The notes under the pieces were generated by a model. That model saw nothing but the letters and a program-made list of their open reading frames with translations. It made no database searches and was not told the DNA's origin. A DNA stretch of 64,000 nt from Flavobacterium sp. 270. GTDB lineage: Bacteria > Bacteroidota > Bacteroidia > Flavobacteriales > Flavobacteriaceae. This document shows, one piece after another, positions 7,357-53,088 of this stretch (position 1 is its first letter; every line of letters begins with the position of its first letter). A program made the position numbers and the translations under genes. The DNA lies in assembly GCF_004368785.1 (NCBI RefSeq), contig NZ_SODM01000001.1:310001-374000 (forward strand), given 5' to 3'.

Positions 7357-7496
7357 AAAGATTAAATCCTGAAAAATTCGTGACTGGTTGAATTCATGAT
7401 TGATACTCTCAAGCTGGGAATTTTGAATATAGAAGCTTTTTTGAGTTTATAGAACTAAGCAACAAATCTTAACGAAGGAACTCAGACTTGAAGGTT

Positions 7497-12139: not shown

Positions 12140-12204
12140 TCTCAGTATTGTTTTTATGATCAAGTTAAATTGCTTCTTCTCTGTATTTTTAAATTTTGAA
12201 AAAT

Positions 12205-12376: not shown

Positions 12377-13246
12377 CTAAAGCTGCAGTGTAGAAAATTT
12401 ATCCGCTTCCGGGAAATTAGCTACGGCTGCCCATCCAGAAGTCATTTCTGTAATGGCAATACCTATCGAACTTCCTAATGTTCCTAACTGTGATTTTGGA
12501 ATACTAAACTCAATTGCGTTTGTTGTATCAGAAAGACTTACAATTCCAGAAGAGGTTAAATTAGCACCAGATCCTGCAATAGCAGCCCAGCCCCAGCCTC
12601 CGTTTGGATCTATATGATTATAAAAAGCGCCCCATCCGTTGGTAACCATTGGACCTTCAAATAAAAATTCTGCTCCAGAACCTCCTGGCCAGCTGCCATG
12701 CAAGAAACCTGTTTTTGTATTTCCGTCTGTATTGATAAACATATCTACCAATTCCATCTGCATTTTTTTGTTTCCCTCTAAATATACATTTACGTTGGCT
12801 CCTTTTGCCCAAATTTTAATTTTCTGGATGGATCCATTTCCAGAAGTATTTTGATCTGTTATGGCAACATCATCCCAATCTTTAAACTTGCCATCTACTT
12901 TAATATCAATAATAATGATTTTTGGAGCGGTAATAGTTTTGGCGATATAAGCTTCTTCTCCAGCCTCGTTTGTAACTGTGAGCGAGACTGTAATTTCTCC
13001 TCCAATTGCGTATGTATACACAGGATCTTTTTTGTCTGAGGTATAATATAGATCTCCGAAATCCCATCTGTATTTACTTCCGTTTGTAGAAAGATTGGTA
13101 AAGGTAAAAGTGCTTCCGTCATTGGTAAAAGAAAAATCTGCTGTGGGTTTATCTGCCGAATCAGAAGACGCATTGTCGCTGGAGCACGATACCAGCAGGA
13201 ATACTGCCAAAAGTGCTGTTACCCATTTGAATATTATTTTTTTCAT
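12377..13246 (-). CDS. PKD-domain lipoprotein with CBM9-like domain
   Basis: 289 residues. The signal peptide ends in the lipobox LLVSCSSD (lipid-linked Cys about residue 21). A PKD domain follows (PTADFSFTNDG to about residue 105, with YRWDFGD as the hallmark). The C-terminal half starts IDIKVDGKFKDWDDV and resembles CBM9 or DOMON-type sugar-binding modules. It is the last gene of the SusC operon, 26 bases after the DUF4874 gene, in the place where SusE/F-like surface glycan-binding proteins occur. A surface glycan-binding role is inferred. Confidence 0.75.
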   Translation of the reverse strand: MKKIIFKWVTALLAVFLLVSCSSDNASSDSADKPTADFSFTNDGSTFTFTNLSTNGSKYRWDFGDLYYTSDKKDPVYTYAIGGEITVSLTVTNEAGEEAYIAKTITAPKIIIIDIKVDGKFKDWDDVAITDQNTSGNGSIQKIKIWAKGANVNVYLEGNKKMQMELVDMFINTDGNTKTGFLHGSWPGGSGAEFLFEGPMVTNGWGAFYNHIDPNGGWGWAAIAGSGANLTSSGIVSLSDTTNAIEFSIPKSQLGTLGSSIGIAITEMTSGWAAVANFPEADKFSTLQL

Positions 13247-14634: not shown

Positions 14635-14699
14635 TTTTTTAAGGATTAAATTAGGGGACAATTCTATATTCATAAAGTGTTTTTGTTCCTTATTGAATA

Positions 14700-19100: not shown

Positions 19101-19437
19101 CGTAGCCTACGTAAGAAAATACTAAGGCTTGTGTATTTGAAGAAACGGTAATCGAAAATGTTCCGTCAAAATCTGTAGTTGTTCCTCTTGCAGATCCTTT
19201 AGGCAGAACGGTTACACCAATCATTGGCTGGCCTAATTCGTCAAGAACAACCCCTTTTATGGTAATATCTGCTTCCGGATCGTTTTTTAAAACTACTTCC
19301 TTACTTTCATTTCCTGAAGTTGTTGCTGCACCTGCTTCAAAAACAGTTACCGAAAGAAACAGTAAGGTAATTATCGTTTTAAAATTAAGTTTTAATTCGG
19401 GATAGCTACCGTGGAGTAACTTGTTACTTTTTTTCAT
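16183..19437 (-). CDS. SusC/RagA family TonB-linked outer-membrane transporter
   Basis: 1084 residues. After a signal region (about 1-38) comes a carboxypeptidase-D-like domain (TIKGVVLDELGQPMIGVTVL). The TonB box/plug region carries VVIVGYGTQKKKNLLGAIS, and the plug motif IESIEVLKDASSTAIYGARA follows with GVILITTKKGK. The rest is a 22-strand barrel with a normal C-terminus. It imports oligosaccharides bound by SusD. It is the first gene of the four-gene operon running to 12377. A long upstream region carries LacI-type operators at 19811-19847. The domain order is complete, so this should be functional. Confidence 0.95.
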   Translation of the reverse strand: MKKSNKLLHGSYPELKLNFKTIITLLFLSVTVFEAGAATTSGNESKEVVLKNDPEADITIKGVVLDELGQPMIGVTVLPKGSARGTTTDFDGTFSITVSSNTQALVFSYVGYDPIEVAIDNKANYTVKMMPASKSLNEVVIVGYGTQKKKNLLGAISSIKGDNLTLSSAPSVLTALEGKVAGLQIVQNSAQPGGGFNIQIRGAGSINASNQPLIVVDGFPITDLGQPGTGNRYDGGTQGILNSFNPNDIESIEVLKDASSTAIYGARAANGVILITTKKGKEGDVRVDYSGSYSYQKYNDNYDVLNLQEWMQLRNDAAKENWEFINKVYPYSPKTLEEANAAPVNGIPFKRYYSDDQIRNAGKGTDWLGLVTRDGMVEQNNVSLRGGTKSTKYFLSGNMFNQEGVIKNSGLKRNTLHFSIDQKINDYITFGMNLTKSKIKNQNSQLGGDQFENSGIIRSAIQQGPNIQAIDEFGNYPINPDNALEPNPYSLLTISDEGVVERTLTNFYAEIKPIEGLTARFQAGFDGGNSSRSTYLPRTTLYGALENGKASISTQKKNDDLFDFTLNYTRKLLEDNTFSLMVGYSQQKYRSEGNSVGNSDFITDSFLWNNINAGGGTKVVGSSKSQNNFISYFTRFNYSYKDKYILTSTIRRDGASVFAQNNKYGLFPSVAVGWDVSQESFMKSLTGYVSQLKLRFGYGQTGNAEIGGNAFGAYYAQPAYLNPDESPVIGVFPSRLENPDLKWETTTEKNIGLDFELFNRKVSGSVEVYDRVVSNLLTLKPINSYNEINMVWANIGKTQSKGVEVTVSTVNIDRPDFKWRSTFTYSQFKTNWKERAPDWKPSVYESYNDPVRAQYYQISDGVMQIGEVVPAQPDLYPGQIKIKDVNGFVRDNAGNPVTDANGVFLRTGAADGKIDEADTVLLGSSDPDFVAGLSNTITYKNFQLNFQFNGMFGRKIIDQTDFAYGVTAVGVAQNGRNALRSIYDRWTPDNPTNTRPGSNFGYSQYSSGDFFLQNASFVRLQSVSLSYNLPKKWFGKYMQGAAIRLDGQNLFTITKYNGIDPETDAVAAAYPNVKTYTVGIDLKF

Positions 19438-20064
19438 ATTATTTTGGTTTGGTTATTTTGGTTAATGTGAAAAGCAAGCTTTTTTGTTTAATAAAATCAG
19501 TTACAATTCATCAAACATAAAAGCGTAAAATCAATCAAATTTTATGTTCCATTTTTAATCATAATTGTCATGTTTTTTTGTTAGTTGTTTTTTGTTTTTT
19601 TTATTCTGTTTTTCGGGTTTCGTTTTTCTGGATTCTTCTGTGGATTATCGAATTTTGAATCCACTCTTTTTGGTATTGTATTTTATTAATTTTCAACAAG
19701 ATCATTCTTTTTTTTCTTTGAAAACTGTAATCAAAAATGAATGCTTTTATACCTTCTTTTCAGCTAAACTAAATAATATTTTTTAATAAACAAGCTTAAA
19801 ATCGAAAAAATGTGTTCGTGCACATAAAAAAAGTGTTTTCGAACACATTTTCTACTAAAAGTATTATTAAATTCTTACTTTTTTATGAATTACCACTAAT
19901 GAATATTCAATAAAAATTTAATTATGACTCATTAAATATCAAAGAATAGCGCTAAAATTTTTACTATTCATTTAAATCAAATCTGCAATGAAAATTGCGT
20001 AAATTCTCCTTTAAAAAAACAATTCTAAAACACAGTTAATCTGTTGTTTTTAAAGCAGATAATC
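19438..20064. other. Gene-free upstream region of susC
   Basis: 627 bases between glmM and susC. A candidate susC promoter lies at 19512-19538 on the minus strand: TATGTTTG with a TTG 16 bases upstream, 3 bases shorter than the usual spacing. Two operator-like palindromes lie about 300 bases further upstream. A Phe-rich frame at 19565-19786 is a by-product of T-rich DNA. No other gene is visible. Confidence 0.5.
19811..19847. promoter_or_regulatory. Pair of LacI-type operators upstream of susC
   Basis: TGTGTTCGTGCACA (19811-19824) and TGTTTTCGAACACA (19834-19847) differ from the perfect palindrome TGTGTTCGAACACA at two and one positions. Their starts are 23 bp apart. The same paired layout occurs beside the lacI gene at 28513-28547, so the LacI regulator at 28598 is the likely binder. 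Confidence 0.7.
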
Positions 20065-21468
20065 TTATACTGCCTGCTTGATTTCTTCAATAAATCTTAC
20101 TGCCAGTTTATCTGCATTTTCCTGAGAATTACTCTCGGTATAAATCCTGATAATAGGTTCTGTATTTGATTTTCTAAGATGCACCCATTCCGTTTCAAAA
20201 TCAATCTTTACACCGTCAATTGTGCTGTGATTTTCGTGCTTGTATTTTTGGGCCATTTTATCCAAAATCAAATCAACATTAATCTCTGGTGTTAACTCAA
20301 TTTTACTCTTACTCATATAGTATGATGGATAGCTTTCGCGAAGGTTTTTGCACGATATTTTTGCGTGTGCCAAATGAGATAAAAACAAACCTACGCCTAC
20401 CAGCGAATCTCTGCCGTAATGTGATTCCGGATAGATGATTCCTCCATTTCCTTCACCGCCAATAATCGCATTTGTTTCCTTCATTAATTCAACAACATTT
20501 ACTTCACCCACAGCACTTGCGTAATACTGGCCGCCATGTTTTAAAGTAATGTCTCGTAATGCTCTTGATGATGATAAATTGGAAACAGTGTTAATTGTTT
20601 TTTCTGCTGATTTCCCAGTCGTTTTTCCTAATACATAATCTGCACAGGCAACCAGTGTATATTCTTCGCCAAACATAGAACCGTCTTCGCAGATAATCGC
20701 CAGGCGATCTACATCTGGATCAACTACAATTCCAAAATCAGCCTTTTCTTTTACAACCAATTCTGAAATATCGGTTAGATGCTCCTTTAAAGGTTCGGGA
20801 TTATGCGGAAAATGTCCGTTTGGGTCACAATATAATGCAACACATTCTACTCCCAGTTTCTTTAATAAACTTGGAATTGCAATTCCTCCCGTAGAATTTA
20901 CGGCATCAACTACTACTTTAAAATTGGCATTTTTAATGGCTTCAACATCAATTAAATCTAATTTTAAAACCTCGCTAATATGTCTTTCTATATAATCATC
21001 TTTCTTTTGATATTGTCCTAAATCATCTACTTCTGCAAATAGAAAATCCTCTTCTTCGGCAATTTTTAAGATTTTTTCACCATTTACAGCATTTAGAAAT
21101 TCGCCTTTATGATTCAATAATTTTAAAGCATTCCATTGCTTCGGATTATGACTTGCAGTAATGATAATACCGCCGTCTGCATGATCTAATGTTACTGCAA
21201 TTTCAACCGTTGGTGTTGTAGACAAACCAAGATCTATTACATTAATCCCTAAGCCAATAAGCGTGTTTGCAACTAAATTGCTGATCATTTCTCCCGAAAT
21301 TCTAGCATCTCTGCCTAAAATTACGTTTAGTGTTTTTGCTTTATTCTGCTGTTTAAGCCATATTCCGTATGCGGCTGCAAATTTTACAGCATTTACCGGA
21401 GTCAGATTTTCATCTACAACACCGCCAATAGTGCCTCTTATTCCTGATATTGATTTTATTAATGCCAT
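20065..21468 (-). CDS. glmM: Phosphoglucosamine mutase
   Basis: 467 residues, a normal length for Bacteroidota GlmM. The phosphoserine loop is TASHNP with Ser106; the metal-binding loop is VVDPDVDRLAI. The sugar-binding loop GGEGNGG and the phosphate-binding loop VHLRKSNTEPIIRIY follow in the expected order. It interconverts glucosamine-6-phosphate and glucosamine-1-phosphate in the cytoplasm; some members also use the N-acetylated or plain hexose phosphates. It is followed on the same strand by the susC operon and preceded by nagB, so it may serve both cell-wall synthesis and HexNAc breakdown. Confidence 0.9.
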   Translation of the reverse strand: MALIKSISGIRGTIGGVVDENLTPVNAVKFAAAYGIWLKQQNKAKTLNVILGRDARISGEMISNLVANTLIGLGINVIDLGLSTTPTVEIAVTLDHADGGIIITASHNPKQWNALKLLNHKGEFLNAVNGEKILKIAEEEDFLFAEVDDLGQYQKKDDYIERHISEVLKLDLIDVEAIKNANFKVVVDAVNSTGGIAIPSLLKKLGVECVALYCDPNGHFPHNPEPLKEHLTDISELVVKEKADFGIVVDPDVDRLAIICEDGSMFGEEYTLVACADYVLGKTTGKSAEKTINTVSNLSSSRALRDITLKHGGQYYASAVGEVNVVELMKETNAIIGGEGNGGIIYPESHYGRDSLVGVGLFLSHLAHAKISCKNLRESYPSYYMSKSKIELTPEINVDLILDKMAQKYKHENHSTIDGVKIDFETEWVHLRKSNTEPIIRIYTESNSQENADKLAVRFIEEIKQAV

Positions 21469-21557
21469 GTTTTATTTATTCTTATTTTATTTTTTTTGCT
21501 ACTCCCGATAATTATCAGGATAAAAGATTAACACAGATTTATTTAAAGAATTATTTT

Positions 21558-21670
21558 AAACCATATAAGTAATTTAAGTTCATATTAATAGGGTTTTCTT
21601 AAATGCACTTTGCTTTTTAAGTTCTTATCAATTCTCAAACTTAAATTTACTTACATAACTTATATGGTTT
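21558..21670. repeat. 113-bp inverted repeat between nagB and glmM
   Basis: The left arm (21558-21580) starts AAACCATATAAGT and continues AATTTAAGTT. The right arm (21638-21670) is its reverse complement with a 10-base insertion, ending ACTTATATGGTTT. Such AT-rich inverted repeats in gaps look like small non-autonomous elements or long 3' stems. A weaker palindrome, GATAATTATC, is at about 21506-21515. Confidence 0.6.
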
Positions 21671-21734
21671 AAAAACTACTATTTAACTCAATCCAAAATC
21701 TTAGTCCCTCAGAACCTTTGAACCTTTGCAACTT

Positions 21735-23663
21735 TTAAAAAACCCATCTCACAAAAGCCTCCATCGCAGCATAACTTGCCAGACCTAACTCATTGTAAAC
21801 ATTGGCCGTTTCTCTGTTTCTGTCTTCGGCTCTCTGCCAAAATTCTCTGGCATCAGTTCCTTGAAAAACAACTCCGTCTTTTTGAGATTGGTGTTTGAAG
21901 ATTCCATGACGTTTTGCCAAAACCTGATCCGGGCTCATTGGCACCGCCATTTCGACTTCGTCAATTCCCCATTCCTGCCAAGCACCGCGGTATAACCATA
22001 ACCAGCAATCGTCCATAAAAGGTTTTGGTTTTAAAGCTTTTACAGCTTCAAAAATTGCATCCAAACAAACTTTATGCGTTCCGTGCGGATCTGCTAAATC
22101 TCCGGCTGCATATATTTGGTGCGGTTTAATTTTTTCGATTAAATCCATCGTCAATTGAATATCTTCTTTTCCAATTGGCTTTTTCTCGATTGTTCCTGTT
22201 TCGTAAAACGGAAGTTCCATAAAATGAATCTGATCGTCGGTTAAACCAACAAAATGACTGGTTGCTCTCGCCTCTCCTTTTCTAATTAATCCTTTTATAT
22301 AGCGTACTTCTGGAATGTCGATTTCGCTGTTCTTCTTATTCTTTAAAAAAGTAACCGCTTTTTCGTAAATCGCATCAGCCTCAGGGCTTTTGATTCCGAA
22401 TTTTTCGTTGTAATCAATTACGAAACTTGCAAAACGCAGCGCTTCGTCATCCGCGACAGCGATATTTCCAGACGTTTGGTAGGCAACGTGTACTTCATGT
22501 CCCTGCTCCTGCAGACGCATAAAAGTTCCTCCCATACTAATAATATCATCATCTGGATGCGGACTGAAAAGCAAAACGCGTTTTCTTGCCGGCTCTGCTC
22601 TTTCCGGACGATTAGCATCGTCTGCATTTGGTTTACCGCCTGGCCAGCCTGTAATGGTATTTTGTAATTTATTGAAAATCTTAATATTAATATCGTAAGC
22701 CGGACCAGAATCTGCCAGTAAATCACTCATTCCGTTTTCGATATAATCGGCATCGGTAAGCATTAAAATTGGTTTTTTAAGTTTTAAAGCCAAACCTAAA
22801 ACCGCTTTTCTAGTCAGTTTATCTGTCCAGACTACTTTTTCTACCAGCCACGGGCTGTTGATTCTCGTTAGTTTTGAAGAAGCTTCTTTATCTAAAATAA
22901 AAACTGCATTATCGTGTTCCTGCAAAAATGAAGCTGGAACTCGATTTGTTACTTCATCTTCTACTGATTTTTTTACAATATTTGCTTTTCCTTCACCCCA
23001 AGCCATCAAAATAACTTGTTTGACTTCCATGATTTTTTTTACTCCAAGCGTGATTGCTGTTCTTGGTGTATTGCTTAATCCAGAAAAATCTTTACTTGCA
23101 GCAACTCTCGTAATATGATCTAAAGCAACCAAACGGGTTTTAGAGTTTTGAAGCGAACCCGATTCGTTAAAACCAATATGTCCGTTACCTCCAATACCCA
23201 AAATCTGCAAATCGATACCGCCCAAAGCTTCAATTTTAGCTTCATAATTGTGGCAGTAACCTGCAATTTGTTCTTTGGTCAAAAGTCCGTCTGGAACGTG
23301 GTAATTTTCAGGTAAAATATCAACATGATCAAACAGTAATTCTTTCATAAAACGAACATAACTGTTGATAGAGTTAGGCTCCATTGGATAATATTCATCC
23401 AGATTGAAACTAATTACGTTTTTAAAACTCAATCCTTCTTCTTTATGAAGACGCACCAGTTCTGCATATAGTCCTTTTGGAGAAGAACCTGTTGCAAGAC
23501 CTAAAATACAAGGTTTATTTTCTTTTTGTTTGGATTGAATTAATGTTGCAATTTCCTGAGCTACTGATTTTGAAGCATCAGTTGAATTTTCGAAAACAAT
23601 GGTATTGATGTTTTCAAATCGCTTTTCAAATCCTGTTGCTTTGTCTATTGTACTTTTTAACAT
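21735..23663 (-). CDS. nagB: Glucosamine-6-phosphate deaminase fused to PIG-L domain
   Basis: 642 residues, two domains. Residues about 20-275 are NagB: ILGLATGSSPKGLYAELVR, then NLDEYYPMEP and GIGGNGHIGFNESGS carry the active-site Asp, Glu and His. It turns glucosamine-6-phosphate into fructose-6-phosphate and ammonia. From about residue 365 a PIG-L/LmbE domain begins (LLFSPHPDDDIISMGG, the zinc-binding HPDD motif) with a later DPHGTHK motif. The same fusion is known in other Bacteroidota. PIG-L enzymes remove N-acetyl groups, so this half might supply the deacetylase step; no separate nagA lies in the window. Confidence 0.9.
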   Translation of the reverse strand: MLKSTIDKATGFEKRFENINTIVFENSTDASKSVAQEIATLIQSKQKENKPCILGLATGSSPKGLYAELVRLHKEEGLSFKNVISFNLDEYYPMEPNSINSYVRFMKELLFDHVDILPENYHVPDGLLTKEQIAGYCHNYEAKIEALGGIDLQILGIGGNGHIGFNESGSLQNSKTRLVALDHITRVAASKDFSGLSNTPRTAITLGVKKIMEVKQVILMAWGEGKANIVKKSVEDEVTNRVPASFLQEHDNAVFILDKEASSKLTRINSPWLVEKVVWTDKLTRKAVLGLALKLKKPILMLTDADYIENGMSDLLADSGPAYDINIKIFNKLQNTITGWPGGKPNADDANRPERAEPARKRVLLFSPHPDDDIISMGGTFMRLQEQGHEVHVAYQTSGNIAVADDEALRFASFVIDYNEKFGIKSPEADAIYEKAVTFLKNKKNSEIDIPEVRYIKGLIRKGEARATSHFVGLTDDQIHFMELPFYETGTIEKKPIGKEDIQLTMDLIEKIKPHQIYAAGDLADPHGTHKVCLDAIFEAVKALKPKPFMDDCWLWLYRGAWQEWGIDEVEMAVPMSPDQVLAKRHGIFKHQSQKDGVVFQGTDAREFWQRAEDRNRETANVYNELGLASYAAMEAFVRWVF

Positions 23664-23823
23664 TGTGAATATTTTTAAACTGTTTTTTCTTTTTAGATGG
23701 AATGTTTTTATTTCAAAAAAGACATGATTCGAGTAATAGCTCCTTCAAATTGTAATTTGAGTGCTTTACGTAATCCGCTTTTGGATTGAAATAAAATGTT
23801 TTTTTTAAGCTGTTGAACTTATT

Positions 23824-23919
23824 TTTTAACACATAGAAACATAGATTTTATTTTGACAAAAAGGCTATAAAAAGAAACTAGTTTAATGCTACAATAAACT
23901 GTTTCTCTATGTGTTAAAA
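23824..23919. repeat. 96-bp inverted repeat upstream of nagB
   Basis: The left arm TTTTAACACATAGAAAC (23824-23840) is the reverse complement of the right arm GTTTCTCTATGTGTTAAAA (23901-23919) apart from two extra bases. It lies between the transporter and nagB and could be a transcript end or a small mobile-element remnant. Confidence 0.6.
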
Positions 23920-23932
23920 GTTCACCTTACGT

Positions 23933-25306
23933 CTACCAACTTCTATATTTGTGCCCCTTATAAGCAAAGAACAAAATCATACTGTAAGCCGGTAATAAAA
24001 TCAGGTATGCAATTTGATTCCCGCTTTTGGCTGTTTCATGAAGACCCGAAGCTGCATTTGAAACATTAATGGCATCGGCAACAAAACCGTATAATAGCGG
24101 AAATACTGCGCCTCCAATAATTCCCATAATCAATATAGCGCCTCCTATTTTTGTAAAACCTCCCAAATCCTGAAGTGCCATTGGCCAAATTGCCGGCCAG
24201 CAAAGTGAATTGGCTAATCCTAAAAGGGCAACTAAAATAATAACTACGGGTAATTGCGGAATTCCCGGTAACTGAACCATCATTTTAGGGGAAATCAAAA
24301 CTATTAGCAGTACCAAAATAAACCCTAGAAAACCTGAAGCTTTTAAAGCAAAAACCTGGGAAACATATTTTGGAATCAGCGTTATTCCTAAAACGTAGCC
24401 CAAAACCATTGCAGTCATGGTAAACGATGTTAGTTTGAGATAAAAATCACCAGTTTCTCCGTAAACTCCTAATTGTTTTCCAAAACCTCCAATTGAATCT
24501 CCAGCCAATACTTCGGCTGCGATATAAACCATAAGTGTGATTACTCCAAAAACTAATTGCGGATGTTGGAAAGCTTCTTTTATTTGTTTGAAAATGCTAA
24601 GATGCATTACCTGCCCGTCTTCGTCTAAATTGATTTCCGGCAATGGAGAAAATTTCACCAAAATGGCTAAAACAAACATAATTATAGCCATATACAAATA
24701 AGGACTCTGCAATTGTAAAGCCAATAAATCTAATGCCTTTTCTTTATCTGCTGCACTTAAAACTGCTATTTTTTCGGCTGTATAGTCGCCAATATTAGAC
24801 AATACCAAAGAAGTTAAGGCTAAAGGTGCCAGAAAACCTGCCAATTTATTTGCAATACCCAATACGCTGATTCTTGCGGCGGCACTTTCGCGCGGGCCAA
24901 TAACGACAACATACGGATTTGCTGCAGTTTGCAAAACAGCCAAACCGGTTCCCATGACAAATAAAGCGATTAAAAAGAGCCCAAAAGTCCTTGCTTCTGC
25001 TGCAGGATAAAACAAAATCGCTCCAATAGCAATAACAAGTAATCCCAGCGAAATTCCGTTTTTGTAACCTACTTTTTCTATTAGAAAAGACGACGGAATT
25101 GCCATTACAAAATAAGCTATATAGAACGCAAAGGTTACAAAATACGCTTGTGATTCAGTCAATTCGCACGCTAATTTAAAAAACGGAATCAGAGGCCCGT
25201 TTAACCAGGTTACAAATCCAAAAATAAAGAATAAGGAAGTTAAAATAACCATCGGGATTAACGTGGTATTTTGTTTTTTTTCTAAAGTAATACTGACTTC
25301 TGACAT
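23933..25306 (-). CDS. nagP: Sugar MFS transporter, FucP/GluP family (NagP-like)
   Basis: 457 residues with twelve predicted membrane helices. The start (LTSLFFIFGFVTWLNGPLIP) is the signature of the FucP/GluP/NagP family of proton-sugar symporters, and LQTAANPYVVVIGP follows in the usual place. Members in Bacteroidota and related bacteria carry N-acetylglucosamine, glucose/galactose or fucose across the inner membrane. Its place between nagB and the epimerase, kinase and nucleotidyltransferase genes favours an N-acetylhexosamine. The gene symbol rests on this context, not on specific residues. Confidence 0.8.
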   Translation of the reverse strand: MSEVSITLEKKQNTTLIPMVILTSLFFIFGFVTWLNGPLIPFFKLACELTESQAYFVTFAFYIAYFVMAIPSSFLIEKVGYKNGISLGLLVIAIGAILFYPAAEARTFGLFLIALFVMGTGLAVLQTAANPYVVVIGPRESAAARISVLGIANKLAGFLAPLALTSLVLSNIGDYTAEKIAVLSAADKEKALDLLALQLQSPYLYMAIIMFVLAILVKFSPLPEINLDEDGQVMHLSIFKQIKEAFQHPQLVFGVITLMVYIAAEVLAGDSIGGFGKQLGVYGETGDFYLKLTSFTMTAMVLGYVLGITLIPKYVSQVFALKASGFLGFILVLLIVLISPKMMVQLPGIPQLPVVIILVALLGLANSLCWPAIWPMALQDLGGFTKIGGAILIMGIIGGAVFPLLYGFVADAINVSNAASGLHETAKSGNQIAYLILLPAYSMILFFAYKGHKYRSW

Positions 25307-25332
25307 ATTTAAGCTTTATTTAAATTGTGAAA

Positions 25333-26259
25333 TTATTTACTGACCAATTCCTGATGGTAAAAAAGTATGGTTTCTTCTAATGCCTGATCTATTGTATAGG
25401 AAGGCTTAAAACCTAATTGATTGAATTTTGACGGATCTGCTTTTGAATGTTTGATATCGCCGGGTCTTTCGTCTAAAAATTTTATCTGCGATTTTGAATT
25501 AGTGATTTTTATGATTTTCTCAGCCAATTCTAAAACTGATGTACTGTGCCCTAACGCGACATTGTAAGTTTCGTTACCCACTTGAGATGCCAGAATATTT
25601 GCTTTAACAACGTCTTTTACATAAATAAAATCACGTGTCTGTAATCCGTCTCCATAAATGGTAATGGGTTCGTTTTGAAGTGCTTTATTTATAAAAATTG
25701 GCACCGCAGCGGCGTAGGCAGATTCTGGATTTTGTCTTGGACCAAATACATTAAAATATCTTAAAGATGCTGTAGGAACCTGATATTGATCTAAATACAT
25801 TTTTAGATAATATTCTCCATCTAGTTTTGTAATCGCATACGGCGTCATGGGTTCTGGAAACATGGTTTCTACTTTTGGCAGAACGGGATTGTTACCGTAA
25901 TTGGCGGCCGAGGTAGAAAGCACGACTTTACAATTTGAAGTGTTTTTTGCTGCTTCTAAAATATTGATTGTTCCTATTGTATTAATTTCGATGCACTCTT
26001 TAATTTTCAGCAACGATTCCGGCACACTAACTAAAGCCGCTAAATGAAAAACTCCACTGGCTCCGTCTATTATTTCATTAACTAAATTTTCATCACGAAT
26101 ATCTCCTTTAACGAATTGAACATTCAATCCTTTTAAGTTTTCCTGAAACCCCGTTCTAAGGCTATCATATATTAAAACCTCATGTCCTTCATTCGATAAA
26201 TGTTCTGCGATATGACTTCCTATAAAACCAGCGCCACCGGTAATTACGTATTTTTTCAT
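25333..26259 (-). CDS. NAD-dependent epimerase (UDP-hexose/UDP-HexNAc 4-epimerase-like)
   Basis: 308 residues of the extended SDR family. The NAD loop is ITGGAGFIGSH at about residues 6-16. The catalytic triad is STSAANYGN with the YxxxK motif in YAITK (about 146-150). RPGDIKHSKAD near the C-terminus is typical of UDP-sugar 4-epimerases. The gene abuts the sugar kinase gene (2-base gap), and kinase and nucleotidyltransferase are also tightly joined. I infer it interconverts UDP-GalNAc and UDP-GlcNAc in a Leloir-like route. UDP-galactose/glucose epimerisation is the main alternative. Confidence 0.8.
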   Translation of the reverse strand: MKKYVITGGAGFIGSHIAEHLSNEGHEVLIYDSLRTGFQENLKGLNVQFVKGDIRDENLVNEIIDGASGVFHLAALVSVPESLLKIKECIEINTIGTINILEAAKNTSNCKVVLSTSAANYGNNPVLPKVETMFPEPMTPYAITKLDGEYYLKMYLDQYQVPTASLRYFNVFGPRQNPESAYAAAVPIFINKALQNEPITIYGDGLQTRDFIYVKDVVKANILASQVGNETYNVALGHSTSVLELAEKIIKITNSKSQIKFLDERPGDIKHSKADPSKFNQLGFKPSYTIDQALEETILFYHQELVSK

Positions 26260-26261
26260 TT

Positions 26262-27368
26262 TTATTGTTTTAATGATGCAACAAACTCCAAATTGTAATC
26301 TTCCAATTCTTTGAAATGTTCAGACATGCTTTCTATGAGCTTAAACTGATTTTTAGAACGGTCAAAATTATGCTCCGGATATTCTGTTTTGTAATACACA
26401 TCGTCGTTTAAAAAATCGGTCAAAAAACGAAGCGCCATAATAAAAATCATCGATTTGGCTCCCAAAGGCAGATATTTGATTTCTAAAACCGAAAGTGACG
26501 TTTTTGTTTTTTCTAAAAATCCTTTTACATACGCTTTATAAAAATCTACATTGAAGTTGACAAGATTTAAATCTCTTTCGTCTTCGGCTGCAGTATTGCA
26601 GATTGTTCTTATCGCATCTCCAAAATCATAATGTACAATGCCGGGCATAACGGTATCGGTATCAATTACACAAAGACCTTTTTTATTCAAATCAAAAAGT
26701 GCATTTGATATTTTAGTGTCGTTATGGGTAACTCTGAGTTTTATTTTTCCAGCTTCTTTCAGCTTTTGCAAAACATGCATTTCTTCTTTCAGCTCTTCTA
26801 CCAGTTCAATATATTCTTTTGCCAATTCTAATCTTTGCTGCGAAGCTTCTTTTAAAGCGGTATCAAACTGACTGTAACGGAAAGACATATTATGAAAATC
26901 GGGAATTACTTCTATCAGTTTTACGGCATTAAAATCACTCGTAAGATTTAAGAATTCTCCAAAAAGCTTTCCTCCTTCATAGGCAATTTCTACATTATTT
27001 ACGGTTTCAAAAGTGATTCCTCCTTCTATATAAACCATCATATTCCAAAAATTCCCATCTATGTCCTGATAATAAGAAGCACCTTTTTTTGTATCAATAA
27101 AAGTTAAAACACGGCGCTTTAATTCCTCTTCTGATAAATGTTTTAATTTTTTCTGCAAATGCCTGCTTACCATTACTTTGTTGGCAATAAGACCGGGAAC
27201 ATCTTTAAAAACACCGCTGTTTATACGTTGTAAAACAAAATGCTGGTTATTTTGGCTTGTGATTAAATAAGTATCATTGATATGGCCGGAGGCTAGTTCT
27301 GTATATTCTTTAAACACTTCGATATGATCGAACTGTTCGAATATAAATTTTAAATGTTCGATTATCAT
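26262..27368 (-). CDS. Sugar 1-kinase-like phosphotransferase (NahK/APH family)
   Basis: 368 residues of the aminoglycoside-phosphotransferase/choline-kinase fold. The catalytic loop is VTHNDTKISNALFD (Brenner motif HxDxxxxN) and the metal motif is CVIDTDTVMPG. N-terminal ASGHINDTYLIT is typical of NahK-type kinases. N-acetylhexosamine 1-kinase phosphorylates GlcNAc or GalNAc at C1. The neighbours are a sugar-phosphate nucleotidyltransferase (1-base gap) and an epimerase (2-base gap), the same trio as in the bifidobacterial lacto-N-biose/galacto-N-biose route. Substrate specificity is inferred from this context. Confidence 0.75.
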   Translation of the reverse strand: MIIEHLKFIFEQFDHIEVFKEYTELASGHINDTYLITSQNNQHFVLQRINSGVFKDVPGLIANKVMVSRHLQKKLKHLSEEELKRRVLTFIDTKKGASYYQDIDGNFWNMMVYIEGGITFETVNNVEIAYEGGKLFGEFLNLTSDFNAVKLIEVIPDFHNMSFRYSQFDTALKEASQQRLELAKEYIELVEELKEEMHVLQKLKEAGKIKLRVTHNDTKISNALFDLNKKGLCVIDTDTVMPGIVHYDFGDAIRTICNTAAEDERDLNLVNFNVDFYKAYVKGFLEKTKTSLSVLEIKYLPLGAKSMIFIMALRFLTDFLNDDVYYKTEYPEHNFDRSKNQFKLIESMSEHFKELEDYNLEFVASLKQ

Positions 27369-27369
27369 A

Positions 27370-28278
27370 TTACCAGAGATTAGTGGGATAAACGTTTTGG
27401 CTTCTTAATTTTTCTATTTCTTTTTTTACGATTTCTTTATCTTCTTTATACGTGACCCCAAACCATTTTGCATTTGACTGTAATACTTCCAGCGATGCGT
27501 TTTCTGATTTTAATATTTCGTTGACAACCGATGTTATAAAAAATTCTGCTTTTAGATCGTGTTCATTTTCTTGTAGAAATTCTTCAAAAAGAGTACCTCC
27601 AAATTCAAAACATTTTGGCGTAAAGCCCCAGAAATTCATCGAAACAATGGTATTTTCATCAATCGGAATAAAATCTCCGTTATCATCTTTACGCATCAAT
27701 TTGCCGTTTATTTTTTCGATGTGCGTGCGTTCTGTAACATCCGTAAGGAAATTATTTTCGTCTACCTGACATTCGCCTCTGGAAACAAATCCGTGATCGG
27801 ATACTGTATTTTTCAGTAAATAAGCCATCATATTAAAATGATAGGATTCTTTGTCCATTTCTGTCAATGCTTTTGCCATGATTTCAAACGCTTCTCTTCC
27901 ATAAAAATCATCTGCGTTTATAATGGCGAAATTTTCTGTTACTTCGTCTTTTGCCATTAATAAGGCGTGGCCGGTTCCCCAGGGTTTTGTTCTTGCGGGA
28001 TTTTGGTATTTTGCGGGAACATTATTAATTTCCTGAAAAACATATCCTACTTCTGCTTTGCCTTCTAATTTTTTGTTGAAGATTTCTTTGCATTCTTCTT
28101 CTATATTTTTACTGATAATAAACACGAATTTTCCAAAGCCTGCCTGAAGCGCATCATAAATCGAAAAATCCATAATTGTATCGCCTTCCGGAGTAAAAGT
28201 ATCCAACTGTTTTAATCCTCCATATCTGCTTCCAATACCTGCCGCCAAAATCACGAGAGTAGGTTTACTTTTATTCAT
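27370..28278 (-). CDS. Sugar-1-phosphate nucleotidyltransferase
   Basis: 302 residues from ATG 28278; the frame is open for another 34 codons but that part is not protein-like. The nucleotide-binding signature ILAAGIGSRYGGLKQLDTF is at residues about 9-27, followed by the metal site AIINADDFYG. This is a GT-A-fold NTP-transferase. With the kinase and epimerase downstream it would make UDP-HexNAc from HexNAc-1-phosphate. It is the first gene of the minus-strand operon and faces lacI across a 319-base gap that holds two operators, so LacI control is likely. Confidence 0.8.
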   Translation of the reverse strand: MNKSKPTLVILAAGIGSRYGGLKQLDTFTPEGDTIMDFSIYDALQAGFGKFVFIISKNIEEECKEIFNKKLEGKAEVGYVFQEINNVPAKYQNPARTKPWGTGHALLMAKDEVTENFAIINADDFYGREAFEIMAKALTEMDKESYHFNMMAYLLKNTVSDHGFVSRGECQVDENNFLTDVTERTHIEKINGKLMRKDDNGDFIPIDENTIVSMNFWGFTPKCFEFGGTLFEEFLQENEHDLKAEFFITSVVNEILKSENASLEVLQSNAKWFGVTYKEDKEIVKKEIEKLRSQNVYPTNLW

Positions 28279-28512
28279 TTTTAATATTATATTAATTGGT
28301 TTATTATTTTTGGTTTTGTGCGATAATTTCCTTTTAAACTTCCCCCGAAAAATCAAAAAAAACTGCGCATTCTCTATCACTAATAATTCTACCCGAAAAA
28401 GAAATAAAATATATTAATATGATAAATTTTAAGTTAATAAGATTCATTATCTTAATATTATTTGGCTAAAGTATATATTAATATCTGATATAAAAAGAAA
28501 AAAGTGTTAAAA

Positions 28513-28547
28513 TGTGTTCGAACACATTGAAAATGTTTTCGAGCACA
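28513..28547. promoter_or_regulatory. Paired LacI operators between lacI and the sugar-nucleotide operon
   Basis: TGTGTTCGAACACA (28513-28526) is a perfect 14-bp palindrome. TGTTTTCGAGCACA (28534-28547) is a two-mismatch copy 21 bp, two helix turns, further on. The central CG is typical of LacI-family operators. The pair precedes lacI by about 50 bases. A possible lacI -7 box (TATATTTG, 28583-28590) lacks a clear -33 TTG and lies unusually close to the start codon. Confidence 0.75.
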
Positions 28548-28597
28548 TATATTTTAATATTTTCTTATATCTGTTTTTTATATATATTTGTTTCTAT

Positions 28598-29638
28598 ATG
28601 GATAAAATCTACACTATAAAGGATATAGCAGAACTTGCAGGCGTCTCTAAGGGCACTGTAGACAGGGTTTTGCATAAAAGAGGAAAAGTCTCGCAAACGG
28701 CTCTTGAAAAAGTAAATGAAGTATTAGATCAGATCGATTATCAGCCTAATTTGATGGCCAGAAGTCTGAAAAATACCAAGATATATTCTATCTCTGTTTT
28801 ACTTCCGGATCCTAAAAACGACTCGTACTGGCAGCCTTGTATTGATGGTATTCATGAAGCGAGAAAAGAATTTAAATCGTTTAATGTAAAAATTGAGATC
28901 TTTTTATTTGATCCTACAAGCACTGCTTCTTTTGTTGAAACCAACAAAATGCTCCTGCAGACTTCTCCAGATGCTGTTTTATTAGTGCCTTTGTTTTATA
29001 AAGAAGCTATTGAAGCTATAGAAAATTACAATTCTCTGGGTATTATCTCGAGCATTTTTAATAACCAGCTTAAATCCAGTTCTATAAAAGGTTTTGTTGG
29101 TCAGGATTTATTCCAGAGCGGCAGAATCGCGGCGAGGCTTCTTGATTTATTATTGAAGAAAGGATTAATCGGAATTATTCATATTGATGAGGATTATGAA
29201 AATGCGATTCACATGCAGGAAAAAGAAAAAGGTTTTAGAAATTACTTTGAAAGTCTGCCAACAGATACCTTTGAAATTGTAACCTTTAAGGTAAAACATC
29301 CACAATTTAAAAGTTCGCTAAAAGAGTTTTTATTAGCCAATCCTAAAATTGCGGGGCTTTTTGTAACGACTTCAAAAGCGTATCAGGTTGCAGAAGTTAC
29401 TTCAAAAAATATAGCGCACAAAGTAGCACTTGTGGGTTATGATTTATTAGAAAATAATATTGAATATCTAAACAATAAAGTAATCGATTTTCTAATTCAC
29501 CAAAACCCAAAAAGACAAGCTTATCTGGGTGCTGCGAGTTTGATCGAATATTTTATTTTCGAAAAAGAAATAAGCCCGGAAAAACTTTTACCAATTGATA
29601 TTGTAAATACTGAAAATGCTAAAGATTACTTTTCGTAA
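28598..29638 (+). CDS. LacI-family transcriptional regulator
   Basis: 346 residues from ATG 28598, which places the DNA-binding domain at the very N-terminus (YTIKDIAELAGVSKGTVDRV, then LHKRGKVS). The hinge region YQPNLMARSLK and a periplasmic-binding-protein-like sensor domain (about 60-340) follow. An upstream in-frame ATG at 28514 lies inside an operator palindrome and gives a non-family extension, so it was rejected. It is divergent from the nucleotidyltransferase-kinase-epimerase operon. Five matching operators in the window suggest it also controls the susC operon and the beta-helix gene. The inducer is probably an amino sugar or its phosphate. Confidence 0.9.
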   Translation: MDKIYTIKDIAELAGVSKGTVDRVLHKRGKVSQTALEKVNEVLDQIDYQPNLMARSLKNTKIYSISVLLPDPKNDSYWQPCIDGIHEARKEFKSFNVKIEIFLFDPTSTASFVETNKMLLQTSPDAVLLVPLFYKEAIEAIENYNSLGIISSIFNNQLKSSSIKGFVGQDLFQSGRIAARLLDLLLKKGLIGIIHIDEDYENAIHMQEKEKGFRNYFESLPTDTFEIVTFKVKHPQFKSSLKEFLLANPKIAGLFVTTSKAYQVAEVTSKNIAHKVALVGYDLLENNIEYLNNKVIDFLIHQNPKRQAYLGAASLIEYFIFEKEISPEKLLPIDIVNTENAKDYFS

Positions 29639-29653
29639 ATAATTATACAATTT

Positions 29654-30301
29654 CTATATATTTTGAGGTGAAGCCAGATTTAAAACACCAAAAGAGCTTG
29701 CAATGTGAAAGTTTGGCGTTTCTGTTTCCGGATTTACCCACGTAATCCATGTTGGCTCAAATGCTTCATTTCCTTTTTGGGTATATTTTGCCCTAAAAAT
29801 TCCTGCTTCGATTGTATTGTCTTTTATTAAATTGAATGCTTTAAGTGATACAATACTAATGGCTATTTCAACTTCAAAATAATCTTTATTTATTGTTGAT
29901 TTTACTTTTAAATCTTTATTAGGCCAATTCCAGTTATAATCAAATACTTTATGTGGTTTTGCGATAAAATCCATTATTCTTGGCGTTGGATCAATTTCCA
30001 GACAATAATACGGATCTAAAGAGGCATCGCTTCTCATAAATATTTCTACACGATCTGAGTTTGCAATACTGGCTTTTGTATGATCTGTTTTGTCAATATG
30101 AATTTGGTCGTCAAAAACTCTAAACGAAAAATAAATAGTATCCAGATCCCATAAAGCTCTAAATTCTATTTTATTAATTTCCACGTCTTCCCAAGGCGAG
30201 CAAAAATCGGTAAGAACAATGGCATTTTCCCATATTGCGTTATTAGCTAAACCTAGGGTTAATGTATTTTTCCCGATGCAATTTACTGTATATGTTTTCA
30301 T
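29654..30301 (-). CDS. CBM9-like carbohydrate-binding protein, no signal peptide
   Basis: 215 residues that look like one complete CBM9-like beta-sandwich: FRALWDLDTIYFSFRVFDDQ, then SDRVEIFMRSD and YYCLEIDPTPRI are typical. No signal peptide or lipobox is visible, so the protein appears cytoplasmic unless a longer start exists. It lies 81 bases downstream of the beta-helix gene on the same strand and convergent with lacI (15-base gap). Role unknown. In related proteins this domain is attached to secreted glycosidases, so a lone cytoplasmic copy is unusual. Confidence 0.75.
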   Translation of the reverse strand: MKTYTVNCIGKNTLTLGLANNAIWENAIVLTDFCSPWEDVEINKIEFRALWDLDTIYFSFRVFDDQIHIDKTDHTKASIANSDRVEIFMRSDASLDPYYCLEIDPTPRIMDFIAKPHKVFDYNWNWPNKDLKVKSTINKDYFEVEIAISIVSLKAFNLIKDNTIEAGIFRAKYTQKGNEAFEPTWITWVNPETETPNFHIASSFGVLNLASPQNI

Positions 30302-30382
30302 TCTGTATTTTATTAAAAAAACTTTAATGCACTAATAGCAATCAGTGCATTAAAGTAAGTGTTATTTATGGGCTCGTAAAAA

Positions 30383-32254
30383 TTATTTCACATATATTTT
30401 ATGACTCGATATTTTATTATCTGCAGTAATCTGAACTATAATAATCTGCGGATTAATCTTTAAATCTGATATCTGAATTTGTGCCGCATTTACATTGTAA
30501 AATTCTTTTTTGAGCAATGCTCTATTATTCAAATCAAATAAAGAAACGGCTGCCGTTTTTACTTCTTCGCCAAAATTGATATTTAATTGTTCTGAAACAG
30601 GGTTCGGAAATACCGAAAAAGTTGTTACTGGTTCTTCTTGTATTTCTTCTACAACTTCAACTTTTGCAGCTTTGGCTGTAGAACCGGTTTGCAATTCAGA
30701 GCAACCAATATCTACACGGCCATTTCGCTTGCGGGTATCTTCATCAAAATCTAAAATTCCAGAATACGTACTGTTGTAAGTTGGATCTCCTTTGTCTGTG
30801 GCAAATGCGCCGCTAGCTAACGTAAAGTTGAATGCTGCTGCGTTGACAAATCCGGGAACACCTACTACAGCATTTACATCCTGACCTGTTGCTGTTGCAA
30901 ATTGCGCAGCATTATAAGATCCTGTTGCAGTGCTTCCGTTAAAACTTACGCCTGTTAAATCAATTATAAAATCGGTTCCTCCTTCTCTGTAATAAAGATT
31001 GTAATTGGATACAAAACTAGAAACGGTATAACCATAAGAAGCTAAAAGTGCTTTTTTGCCTGTTGTAGCATACAAAATATTATTTTTGAAAGTAATTCCG
31101 GAACTGTTTTGCAGATGTACTTCGCCGCCATAAATATCTGCAATTGTTCCTACAGCAACGCCGCCAACAGTTGTAACTCCATTAATTACTGCTCCGGTTC
31201 TGTTTTTATAAAAGGTATTGTTGAAAATCTTTGTATTACCTACACTTGTAGTGTAACCGCTGCCAACAACACCTCCAAAAATAGCTCCTGTAATCACATT
31301 GCTGTAAACAGAATTATTGTTTACATAATGTCCTGTAGATTGTCCACCATTTCCTGTAGCCGTATTTTGTTCTGAACCAACAGAAATACCAACACCACAA
31401 TTATAGACTTCATTTCTCTGGACCGTACAATTTAAAGCTCCGTCTATATAAATACCCGCGCTGTTTGCTACGGCACTCATACAATTAAAAACTTCGTTGC
31501 CAGAAATCACTCCGTTTCTTGCCTGATTATTGCTTGTTGCACCTGTAGAAGTGTAATTTCCGGCAGCTACAATTCCGATATTGGCAATATTATAAACTGT
31601 GTTTCCAGAAACAGTAAATCCGTTTACGTTTCCTGTTAAGGTTACAGCTTCTCCCCAACCCGTTGCGCAATTAGTTACTTCATTATTTTCCAGTTTTACA
31701 TTGGTAATAGCGTAAGTGCCGCTTCCTCCGTCTACTTTTATTGCGTTGGCAACAATACCGCTGTTTGCGGGAATAGACGACAGATTGTTACTAATCCAGC
31801 CTATGTTTTTGACAATGCAGTTTTTGATCGTAATGTTATTAAGATTTGCCGTTGCTCCTGAATTTGCCAAAATCCAGATTCCTTTACTTCCGTTACTAAT
31901 TTTATTAGAAATCGTTAAACCGTCGATTGTTACACTACTTGTATTTACAATTCCTAATACATAAGTGTCTGTGCTTGTCCAGCCAGAAGCATTGATGATC
32001 ACTGCTGCTGAACCATTTTTTTGAATGGTCAATGGCTTTCCGATATAAATTGGACCTGTTGCAGGATAAGTTCCCGAAGCAACCAAAACCGTTCCGCCCG
32101 ATGGCGCTGCCTGTACTCCTTTTACAATGGTTTTATAGGGCAAGGCCGCCGTTCCTGTACCTGTGGCATCATTTCCTGTAGTCGAAACATAAGTCTGGCA
32201 AAAGCCTTGTACAAAACAAAATAAAATTAAAAAAGTAATTTTTTTGATTTTCAT
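30383..32254 (-). CDS. Secreted right-handed beta-helix protein with T9SS sorting tail
   Basis: 623 residues from ATG 32254 (signal peptide ITFLILFCFVQGFCQ); a longer frame has no support. The mature start TYVSTTGNDATGTGTAALPY followed by KTIVKGVQ is the DUF1565-type opening of parallel beta-helix proteins. Many Asn-rich coils with repeated N-x-V/I patterns follow to about residue 520. The last 75 residues (FSVFPNPVSEQLNINF to KISSHKIYVK) form a type A type IX secretion sorting domain. Beta-helix proteins of this type are often polysaccharide lyases or hydrolases, but I cannot identify catalytic residues. A LacI-type operator lies 243 bases upstream. Confidence 0.85.
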   Translation of the reverse strand: MKIKKITFLILFCFVQGFCQTYVSTTGNDATGTGTAALPYKTIVKGVQAAPSGGTVLVASGTYPATGPIYIGKPLTIQKNGSAAVIINASGWTSTDTYVLGIVNTSSVTIDGLTISNKISNGSKGIWILANSGATANLNNITIKNCIVKNIGWISNNLSSIPANSGIVANAIKVDGGSGTYAITNVKLENNEVTNCATGWGEAVTLTGNVNGFTVSGNTVYNIANIGIVAAGNYTSTGATSNNQARNGVISGNEVFNCMSAVANSAGIYIDGALNCTVQRNEVYNCGVGISVGSEQNTATGNGGQSTGHYVNNNSVYSNVITGAIFGGVVGSGYTTSVGNTKIFNNTFYKNRTGAVINGVTTVGGVAVGTIADIYGGEVHLQNSSGITFKNNILYATTGKKALLASYGYTVSSFVSNYNLYYREGGTDFIIDLTGVSFNGSTATGSYNAAQFATATGQDVNAVVGVPGFVNAAAFNFTLASGAFATDKGDPTYNSTYSGILDFDEDTRKRNGRVDIGCSELQTGSTAKAAKVEVVEEIQEEPVTTFSVFPNPVSEQLNINFGEEVKTAAVSLFDLNNRALLKKEFYNVNAAQIQISDLKINPQIIIVQITADNKISSHKIYVK

Positions 32255-32863
32255 AATCTTTAAAAATTTTGGGTTAATAATTAAACACATTACTAGGATT
32301 CTTATAAAATATAATTTCGAAATTTATCATGTGCAACAGGGTTTTAAACCCTAAAAATTAGACATAAACAGGTCATAGTCGATTGGTTAACTTTTTTGTT
32401 TTTAACCTATTAACTTCTTTAAAAAAAACTTTTATATCGTATTTTGAACTAAAGTAAATAATGTCTTTTAATTAACAATAAAAAACATCGAAAAAATGTG
32501 CTCGAACACATAAATACGTCAAAAAATCAATATTTGTAATATTTTTCAAACAAAACAATAGTCAGATAGAAAGTAAAAATCATATTTATAAAATAAAAAA
32601 TTACAATTGGGTAAGAATGGTAATATACAATTAAAAAAATGGGATAGATTTAGAGTACAAATTATTTGGAGTTTTACTACAGCAACAGCAGATTATATTC
32701 TTGAATATAAAAAAAGAAAGCCCGGTTAAATAAACAACGAAATAAAGTCCTATCGTTTTATAATTATATAACACCTCAACAAAATTCTATAATTTAAAGC
32801 CTCTTCATTACTTGTACTTTTGGTTAAAGATTAGTTCTATAACAAACAGCAATCAAGCACCTT
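32255..32863. other. Gene-free region upstream of the beta-helix gene
   Basis: 609 AT-rich bases between two divergent genes. It contains one LacI-type operator (32497-32510) and a TACTTTTG box at 32815-32822 that could serve the plus-strand gene at 32864, although no -33 TTG is visible. Nothing else is recognised. Confidence 0.5.
32497..32510. promoter_or_regulatory. Single LacI-type operator upstream of the beta-helix gene
   Basis: TGTGCTCGAACACA differs at one position from the palindrome TGTGTTCGAACACA found beside lacI. It lies 243 bases upstream of the beta-helix start codon. Confidence 0.65.
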
Positions 32864-53055: not shown

Positions 53056-53085
53056 TTGATGCTCTATGGTCATTAGCTATCTTTG
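53056..53085 (+). promoter_or_regulatory. Promoter of the CheB/CheR-kinase gene
   Basis: TTG (53056-53058), 19 bases, TATCTTTG (53078-53085). The box ends only 3 bases before ATG 53089, so the transcript either starts at that codon or translation begins at ATG 53098. Confidence 0.7.
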
Positions 53086-53088
53086 AGT

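Follow-up and report, generated by a model that had tools for sequence, protein, structure and literature searches.

LacI-family regulators that sit with sugar catabolic genes are known from Bacteroides, where KdgR, UxaR, UxuR and UxmR control uronate use (PMC3878776, PMC4052901, in the available text), and elsewhere the position of the operator has been used to read how such proteins act. For PckR, a LacI-family regulator of central metabolism in alpha-proteobacteria, the sign of regulation was predicted from operator position, and some targets are activated (PMC4052901, same limit). At the gal promoters of E. coli, GalR bound to the external operator (OE) at -60.5 represses P1 by contact and activates P2 (PMC4693257, in the part available). 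For N-acetylgalactosamine (GalNAc), locus BT4240-50 of B. thetaiotaomicron encodes a NahK-like GalNAc kinase, GH109, SusC/D-like proteins and an inner-membrane transporter, with an extracytoplasmic function (ECF) sigma/anti-sigma pair as its likely regulator (PMC11992087, in the part available). Here we analyse a stretch of 64,000 nucleotides from Flavobacterium sp. 270 (contig NZ_SODM01000001.1, positions 310,001 to 374,000; the window), in which a LacI-family gene lies among five copies of a palindrome of the form TGTGYTCGARCACA and a set of GalNAc-related operons. The regulon is real, well supported and of a known kind. Its target promoters mostly share a fixed spacing between operator and -7 box, a feature that is new here and absent from the initial annotation of the window, and this layout makes the sign of regulation a sharp test.

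The initial annotation had pointed out five near-copies of one palindrome, two pairs of them 21 and 23 bp apart, ahead of susC, in the gap between lacI and the nucleotidyltransferase gene, and ahead of a gene for a type IX secretion system (T9SS) beta-helix protein; all five were verified with a central CG at those places, and the gene contexts are correct (Table 1). Palindromes of this kind could be accidents of AT-rich DNA, and with up to three mismatches the count is within chance (five seen, 2.55 expected; 15 of 100 shuffles of the window reach five). But with up to two mismatches the five compare with a mean of 0.145 and a maximum of 2 in 200 simulated windows, and a two-fold degenerate pattern finds five against a shuffle mean of 0.44, none of 100 shuffles reaching five. 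The genome scan that had been suggested as a check was also run: a joint pattern, TGTKYTCGWRCACA, itself built from the five window sites, matches exactly at those five places only in the 5.73-Mb genome. Allowing one mismatch adds eight places, six of them inside a stop-to-stop frame of at least 120 amino acids. A chance origin is further contradicted, and in our judgement refuted, by the co-occurrence of the sites with LacI across genomes described next, and we give it practically no weight.

The LacI protein has an N-terminal helix-turn-helix (HTH; PF00356, E 1e-15) and a periplasmic-binding-like effector domain (PF13407, E 2.5e-27). Its nearest relatives are Flavobacterium proteins at 82-85%, and in the PDB it matches only 3gbv, a putative LacI-family regulator, at E <= 1e-10. 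Palindromic operators with a central CG and a leucine in the hinge are typical of LacI proteins, and both are found here: hinge residue L57 is kept in 103 of 103 orthologs, and residues V16-R23, the DNA-reading helix, are identical in at least 102 of 103 at each position. Median identity among orthologs is 0.80 in the HTH as against 0.54 in the effector domain. Among 299 genomes of the genus, 67 have both an exact TGTGYTCGARCACA and a LacI ortholog (at least 55% identity), one has LacI only (G104), one the site only (G224) and 230 neither; among 299 genomes from 236 genera of the family the numbers are 43, 1, 3 and 252, with exact sites in 42 of the 236 genera. The LacI cut-offs were chosen after the hits were seen, and weaker matches were counted as lacking an ortholog (G074, G090, G105 and G135 in the genus, 35-39%; G547 and G553 in the family, 37-38%). 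Fisher values are 7e-65 and 3e-47 for genus and family, in which independence is overstated because the genomes are related. Of 34 named contigs that carry lacI orthologs, Maribacter, Flavivirga, Polaribacter, Confluentibacter, Sinomicrobium and Aquimarina being among their genera, 33 have a site of no more than one mismatch in the 500 bp upstream of lacI (32 of 33 from one scoring, with L196 judged separately); the other contig, L192, has a site 1.7 kb off. The same holds for 62 of 69 lacI copies in the fetched genus loci.

It might instead be that the palindromes serve another regulator and that LacI merely travels with the locus. In favour of this, seven of the 69 genus lacI copies (L097, the second copy of L099, L110, L128, L134, L141 and L153) have no upstream site of at most one mismatch, G104 (L134) has none in the 12.5 kb around its lacI, and four genomes, one from the genus draw and three from the family draw, carry exact sites without a close LacI; these cases count against our attribution of the sites to LacI. 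The near-perfect co-occurrence in two draws of 299 genomes, the LacI-typical central CG and invariant hinge leucine, and the usual position of sites beside lacI make the alternative very improbable, and they bear out the initial proposal of a single LacI-family regulator tied to the sites. The LacI protein probably binds the TGTGYTCGARCACA palindromes, a judgement we make jointly with that on GalNAc control below; sites, co-occurrence, spacing and gene content are read from sequence, and from them we infer binding, effector and sign. As separate observations, some of the site-less lacI copies are second copies in their genome, and the genomes with exact sites lacking a close ortholog (G224; G318, G378 and G581 in the family) may have lost the regulator or acquired the sites in another way.

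In all three window promoters the proximal site lies upstream of a TAnTTTAG box, at 39, 39 and 40 bp. Since the flavobacterial -7 box occupies -12 to -5 (PMC9723704, in the part available), the centre of the site would fall near -58.5. A first set of fetched loci contains 399 site-gene orientations, 95 toward lacI and 304 toward other genes, and a TAnnTTnG box occurs at 38-40 bp in 212 of the 304 versus none of the 95. With identical promoters removed, it is found in 196 of 282 (shuffle mean 2.7, maximum 8; best other 3-bp window, 9), at 39 bp in 134 cases, 38 bp in 40 and 40 bp in 22, and toward lacI in 0 of 87. None of the eight one-mismatch places in the genome has such a box at this distance on either side. 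In most first-set promoters a TTG precedes the -7-like box by 19 or 20 bp. TTG is kept at the -33 place in 187 of 248 promoters. Across unrelated promoters the site thus keeps a single distance and lies upstream of the -33 region, with exceptions listed below. The -7 box itself is non-consensus in 188 of the 196 first-set targets, and the consensus TATATTTG is present in 63 of 87 lacI promoters. Its frequency there and its closeness to the ATG suggest, as an aside, that the lacI mRNA may be leaderless or nearly so.

A later set was drawn from other genera of the family: loci from 40 of the 45 further genomes with exact sites were fetched (all but G430, G514, G525, G533 and G537), covering part of their sites, and two contigs, L240 and L241, were dropped as identical to L192 and L193 of the first set. 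This left 36 genomes, 33 genera and 67 orientations away from lacI. The spacing had already been seen by eye in non-Flavobacterium loci before this set was fetched, and 8 of 12 non-Flavobacterium orientations were first-set hits, so some of its genera may not be new. Under the rule fixed beforehand, TAnnTTnG at 38-40 bp, 21 of 67 orientations have the box (shuffle mean 0.5, maximum 3), in 15 genera, 15 of the 21 being nucleotidyltransferase operons. With a relaxed TAnnTT, adopted post hoc because many later-set promoters were seen to end in TTCA or TTAA, the count is 46 of 67 (shuffle mean 4.5, maximum 10) in 28 genera: 16 of 19 at nucleotidyltransferase genes, 15 of 19 at susC-like genes, 13 of 23 at other genes, 1 of 2 at epimerase, 1 of 1 at CBM9, 0 of 2 at nagB and 0 of 1 at nagP. 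The strict result is therefore carried by the kinase operons, and the case for other genes outside the genus depends on the relaxed box. On the lacI side the box is found in 0 of 17. One could suppose that the sites are LacI's and that the spacing was simply inherited from copied promoter cassettes, so that the geometry would say nothing about mechanism; first-set promoters do resemble one another between site and -7 box, as the column conservation of this stretch indicates. But the spacing by the relaxed box recurs in the 28 other genera with a differing stretch, at kinase, susC-like and other genes, and is absent toward lacI beside the very same sites, and we hold this explanation to be improbable.

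A distance kept within 3 bp at so many operons argues for contact with RNA polymerase. At its target operons a LacI dimer would sit near -58.5, in the genus usually with a second dimer 21-24 bp further upstream, most likely touching RNA polymerase and most likely activating when a GalNAc-derived signal is present; at lacI and, in some relatives, at a CBM9-like gene, the sites lie close to or across the promoter, and there the effect is probably repression. On balance we favour LacI-type control of GalNAc use through contact with RNA polymerase, with activation likelier than contact repression, the sign, read from position, being only probable. Our first reading, held with somewhat better than even confidence, is activation of the CRP-like class I type, dual action included, from positions known for that class.

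The same regulator and regulon could be imagined to repress everywhere, by GalR-like contact inhibition at -58.5 and by occlusion at -37.5, at -20.5 and at lacI, with a GalNAc-derived inducer lifting the block. GalR at OE offers a direct example of contact inhibition at -60.5 (PMC4693257, as above), the CBM9 and nucleotidyltransferase promoters occur with more than one layout, and repression is the usual logic of sugar LacI proteins. Yet a repressor needs no fixed distance, and the distance is kept at 38-40 bp in most first-set orientations and likewise in the later set; first-set target -7 boxes are, moreover, mostly non-consensus. We regard repression throughout as unlikely, although several observations do weigh against activation or against the generality of the layout. 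Because GalR acts both ways at -60.5, the sign cannot be read off from a fixed site near -60. In seven loci (L114, L116, L123, L128, L133, L146 and L194, with L126 a near case) the site of the CBM9-like gene lies one base from TATATTTG, which looks like repression, and if each gene has one sign this would extend to repression throughout, given that CBM9-like genes in the window clade share the -58.5-type operon. In six loci (L151, L184, L187, L204, L244 and L249) the site of a nucleotidyltransferase or nagP promoter is only 17-19 bp away from a consensus -7 box, with its centre near -37.5 and over the -33 region; this class stands about two helical turns nearer than the usual one and would suit either sign. 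The box is missing from 86 of the 282 first-set orientations (44 toward CBM9 genes, 20 at far second sites of the beta-helix gene, 13 other, five susC, three nucleotidyltransferase and one glmM), 52 of the 86 being the back side of a site with a hit or lacI on its other side. At susC-like genes of the later set the strict box is found only rarely (2 of 19), and 11 of 47 later-set promoters have a perfect -7 box. Site promoters with a perfect -7 box have TTG at the -33 place more often (7 of 19) than controls (29 of 200). A second site 21-24 bp upstream accompanies 148 of 201 first-set promoters but only 12 of 47 later-set ones, so the site pair appears typical of the genus. Promoters of one genus are related, so that the counts are not independent, and the start sites are estimated, not mapped. 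An argument for activation from weak core promoters was dropped, since in the test for TTG depletion TTG proved commoner, not rarer.

What the regulon does can be judged from its genes. The initial annotation had assigned surface capture, a secreted depolymerase-like protein and cytosolic amino-sugar metabolism to one regulator, and the linkage and the sites before susC, the amino-sugar genes and the T9SS operon uphold this, whereas 'depolymerase-like' is not supported: the beta-helix protein gave a poor model (mean predicted local distance difference test, pLDDT, 50), its fold matches are weak and mostly generic beta-helices (among them VexL at E 1.9e-3, from this low-confidence model), and no catalytic Pfam family was found in it. 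'Amino-sugar' metabolism can be narrowed to GalNAc on the strength of predicted functions. GalNAc-specific enzymes predicted among the targets are the NahK-like kinase, whose only PDB matches at E <= 0.001 are N-acetylhexosamine kinases, and GH109, and in relatives GH101, GH123_N and one PL8. Operons with the fixed spacing in relatives hold a GHMP-type or NahK-like kinase with a nucleotidyltransferase, nagP, the NagB/PIG-L fusion, several SusC/D pairs, GH109 (18 loci), a GH123 N-terminal match (18 loci, a count in which the first gene copies are often cut by the locus end) and DUF3472. By predicted function GalNAc is the common thread of these operons. GH101, PL8, GH35 and GH95 turn up in only one or two loci apiece; they would suit glycans that contain GalNAc, but they are slender evidence. 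Two unrelated families supply the kinase of the operon: many genus loci (the L083-L162 operons) have a GHMP-type enzyme, the window clade and other genera a NahK-like one. The LacI protein would thus govern GalNAc acquisition and catabolism in this Flavobacterium and in many members of the family. In the route we envisage, the NahK-like kinase would convert GalNAc to GalNAc-1-P, the nucleotidyltransferase would make UDP-GalNAc and the epimerase UDP-GlcNAc, followed by GlcNAc-1-P, GlcNAc-6-P (GlmM-like mutase), and GlcN-6-P and fructose-6-P (NagB/PIG-L fusion). In L124 (16476-20000) and relatives, SusC/D operons under the same site also carry arylsulfotransferase-like and cytochrome c-like genes and a GH123-type match.

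GH109 enzymes free alpha-linked GalNAc, and HGSNAT acetylates terminal alpha-linked glucosamine. In the window, susC and susD are adjacent and accompanied by glycan-active enzymes, as in a polysaccharide utilization locus, and GH109 and NagX/HGSNAT-like genes follow the PKD gene after a gap of ~210-240 bp, with no operator of their own found within the window. The NagX-like protein (373 amino acids) matches NF046061 at E 8.5e-53 (179.7 bits, under the cut-off of 480) and HGSNAT structures at E 5e-7, while Pfam yielded no family at E <= 0.001 and, at E <= 10, only weak names no better than chance. The susC operon encodes a protein with DUF4874 and DUF4832. The latter domain is shared with SIR_1591, a hydrolase by which the Pel aggregates of Streptococcus intermedius are dispersed; the polymer of this species is rich in alpha-1,4-GalNAc (PMC12345266, in the part available). 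The predicted model of the window protein is poor (mean pLDDT 52) and a PDB sequence search gave no match; it is a better depolymerase candidate than the beta-helix protein. Together, DUF4832, GH109 and the NagX/HGSNAT-like protein suggest use of partly deacetylated galactosamine polymers, and the window susC operon may target such alpha-1,4-linked polymers. In the case of Pel or galactosaminogalactan, the DUF4832 protein would cut the chain, the NagX-like membrane enzyme would re-acetylate free amines and GH109 would release GalNAc. The place of the NagX-like gene beside GH109 would suit re-acetylation of galactosamine ends before cleavage. On contig L193, from Sinomicrobium, susC, susD, DUF4832, PKD and NagX-like genes follow the order of the window and have a site and lacI beside them, which supports their belonging together; most fetched clade loci end before the DUF4832 gene, which limits how far its association with susC can be followed. 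We put forward only tentatively the full picture of a family-wide LacI-type activator whose 14-bp operator switches on GalNAc programmes through a fixed contact with RNA polymerase at about -58.5, in many cases with another dimer near -81.5; in the window clade these programmes would include a SusC/D operon devoted to biofilm or fungal polymers of alpha-1,4-galactosamine that are partly deacetylated, such as Pel and galactosaminogalactan.

Table 1. Operators, promoter elements and genes of the proposed regulon, with positions in the window.
Feature	Position	Strand	Remarks
Operator proximal to nucleotidyltransferase operon, TGTGTTCGAACACA	28513..28526		39 bp to -7-like box; estimated centre -58.5
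Second operator, TGTTTTCGAGCACA	28534..28547		21 bp further upstream seen from nucleotidyltransferase operon; nearer one to lacI
Operator proximal to susC, TGTGTTCGTGCACA	19811..19824		39 bp to -7-like box
Second susC operator, TGTTTTCGAACACA	19834..19847		23 bp further upstream
Operator of beta-helix/CBM9 operon, TGTGCTCGAACACA	32497..32510		40 bp to -7-like box
-7-like box of nucleotidyltransferase operon, TACTTTAG	28466..28473	-	offset 39 bp
-7-like box of susC, TAGTTTAG	19764..19771	-	TTG (-33-like) 19791-19793, 19-bp spacer
-7-like box of beta-helix operon, TACTTTAG	32449..32456	-	TTG 32476-32478, 19-bp spacer
Consensus -7 box of lacI, TATATTTG	28583..28590	+	7 bases before ATG; site offset 35 (L004)
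LacI-family regulator, 346 amino acids	28598..29638	+	PF00356 HTH and Peripla_BP_4; likely start ATG 28598 (mechanical open reading frame start GTG 28514 overlaps a site)
Sugar-1-phosphate nucleotidyltransferase-like protein	27370..28278	-	likely ATG 28278; PF00483 on longer listed open reading frame; PDB 3pnn, E 6e-93
N-acetylhexosamine 1-kinase (NahK-like)	26262..27368	-	PDB 4ocu, 4wh1, 4ocj, E ~1e-64
UDP-sugar 4-epimerase-like protein	25333..26259	-	WbgU/WbpP among best matches
NagP-like MFS sugar transporter	23933..25306	-	NF046060, E 2e-131, under curated cut-off
NagB/PIG-L fusion (glucosamine-6-phosphate deaminase-like and deacetylase-like domains)	21735..23663	-	NF002557 above cut-off
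Phosphohexosamine mutase (GlmM-like)	20065..21468	-	TIGR03990 above cut-off
SusC-like TonB-dependent transporter	16183..19437	-	
SusD-like lipoprotein	14700..16172	-	
DUF4874+DUF4832 protein	13273..14673	-	domain matches
PKD-domain protein	12377..13246	-	last gene before the gap
NagX/HGSNAT-like transmembrane N-acetyltransferase	11042..12163	-	NF046061 and HGSNAT structures
GH109 alpha-N-acetylgalactosaminidase	9628..11004	-	
T9SS beta-helix protein	30383..32290	-	TIGR04183 and TIGR03804, both just above cut-off
CBM9-like protein	29654..30301	-	downstream gene of beta-helix operon; no evident signal peptide (judged by eye)

Elsewhere in the window, a GH43 gene and an MFS transporter gene (6088-9227) adjoin the regulon without any site, and a large CheB-CheR-histidine kinase fusion protein is encoded at 53083-56406.

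If this reading is right, many Flavobacteriaceae control GalNAc use by a simple cytosolic switch instead of the SusR, ECF and hybrid two-component systems that are commonly named for the phylum, and searching genomes of the family for the 14-bp operator could reveal GalNAc genes. Whether LacI proteins can act as true activators in Bacteroidota could be tested clearly and cheaply by way of the fixed spacing, and the set of NagX-like, GH109 and DUF4832 genes suggests a bacterial route for eating Pel-like biofilm polymers. In the literature searched, outside of which most subscription papers fall, we found no description of this LacI/GalNAc regulon in Flavobacterium.

The lacto-N-biose/galacto-N-biose (LNB/GNB) pathway of Bifidobacterium, with NahK and a uridylyltransferase step, follows the same logic of an N-acetylhexosamine 1-kinase and a 4-epimerase, although the locus described here has a GlmU/GalU-like nucleotidyltransferase where that pathway has the uridylyltransferase. 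BT4240-50 shares its kinase, GH109, SusC/D-like proteins and inner-membrane transporter with our locus but differs in its likely regulator, an ECF sigma/anti-sigma pair there and LacI here, and neither 'epimerase' nor 'nucleotidyl' occurs in the main text of PMC11992087. DUF4832 is common to SIR_1591 and to our locus, but SIR_1591 belongs to a Pel synthesis operon and the protein here to a SusC/D uptake operon (PMC12345266, as above). PMC12125979, in the part available, deals with an AraC-type protein of Vibrio and was discarded as a comparison. The LacI-family regulators of Bacteroides share with ours the phylum and the company of sugar catabolic genes, but their subject is uronate and not GalNAc (the main text of PMC3878776 contains neither 'GalNAc' nor 'acetylgalactosamine'), and the fixed promoter spacing was not seen for them in the available text of PMC3878776 and PMC4052901. 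PckR is likewise a LacI-family protein and a precedent for predicting sign from site position, but for central metabolism in another phylum (PMC4052901). With GalR the LacI protein would share a dimer near -60 and contact with RNA polymerase, but GalR works at gal with an external and an internal operator and a DNA loop (PMC4693257), whereas here mostly tandem upstream sites recur at many operons.

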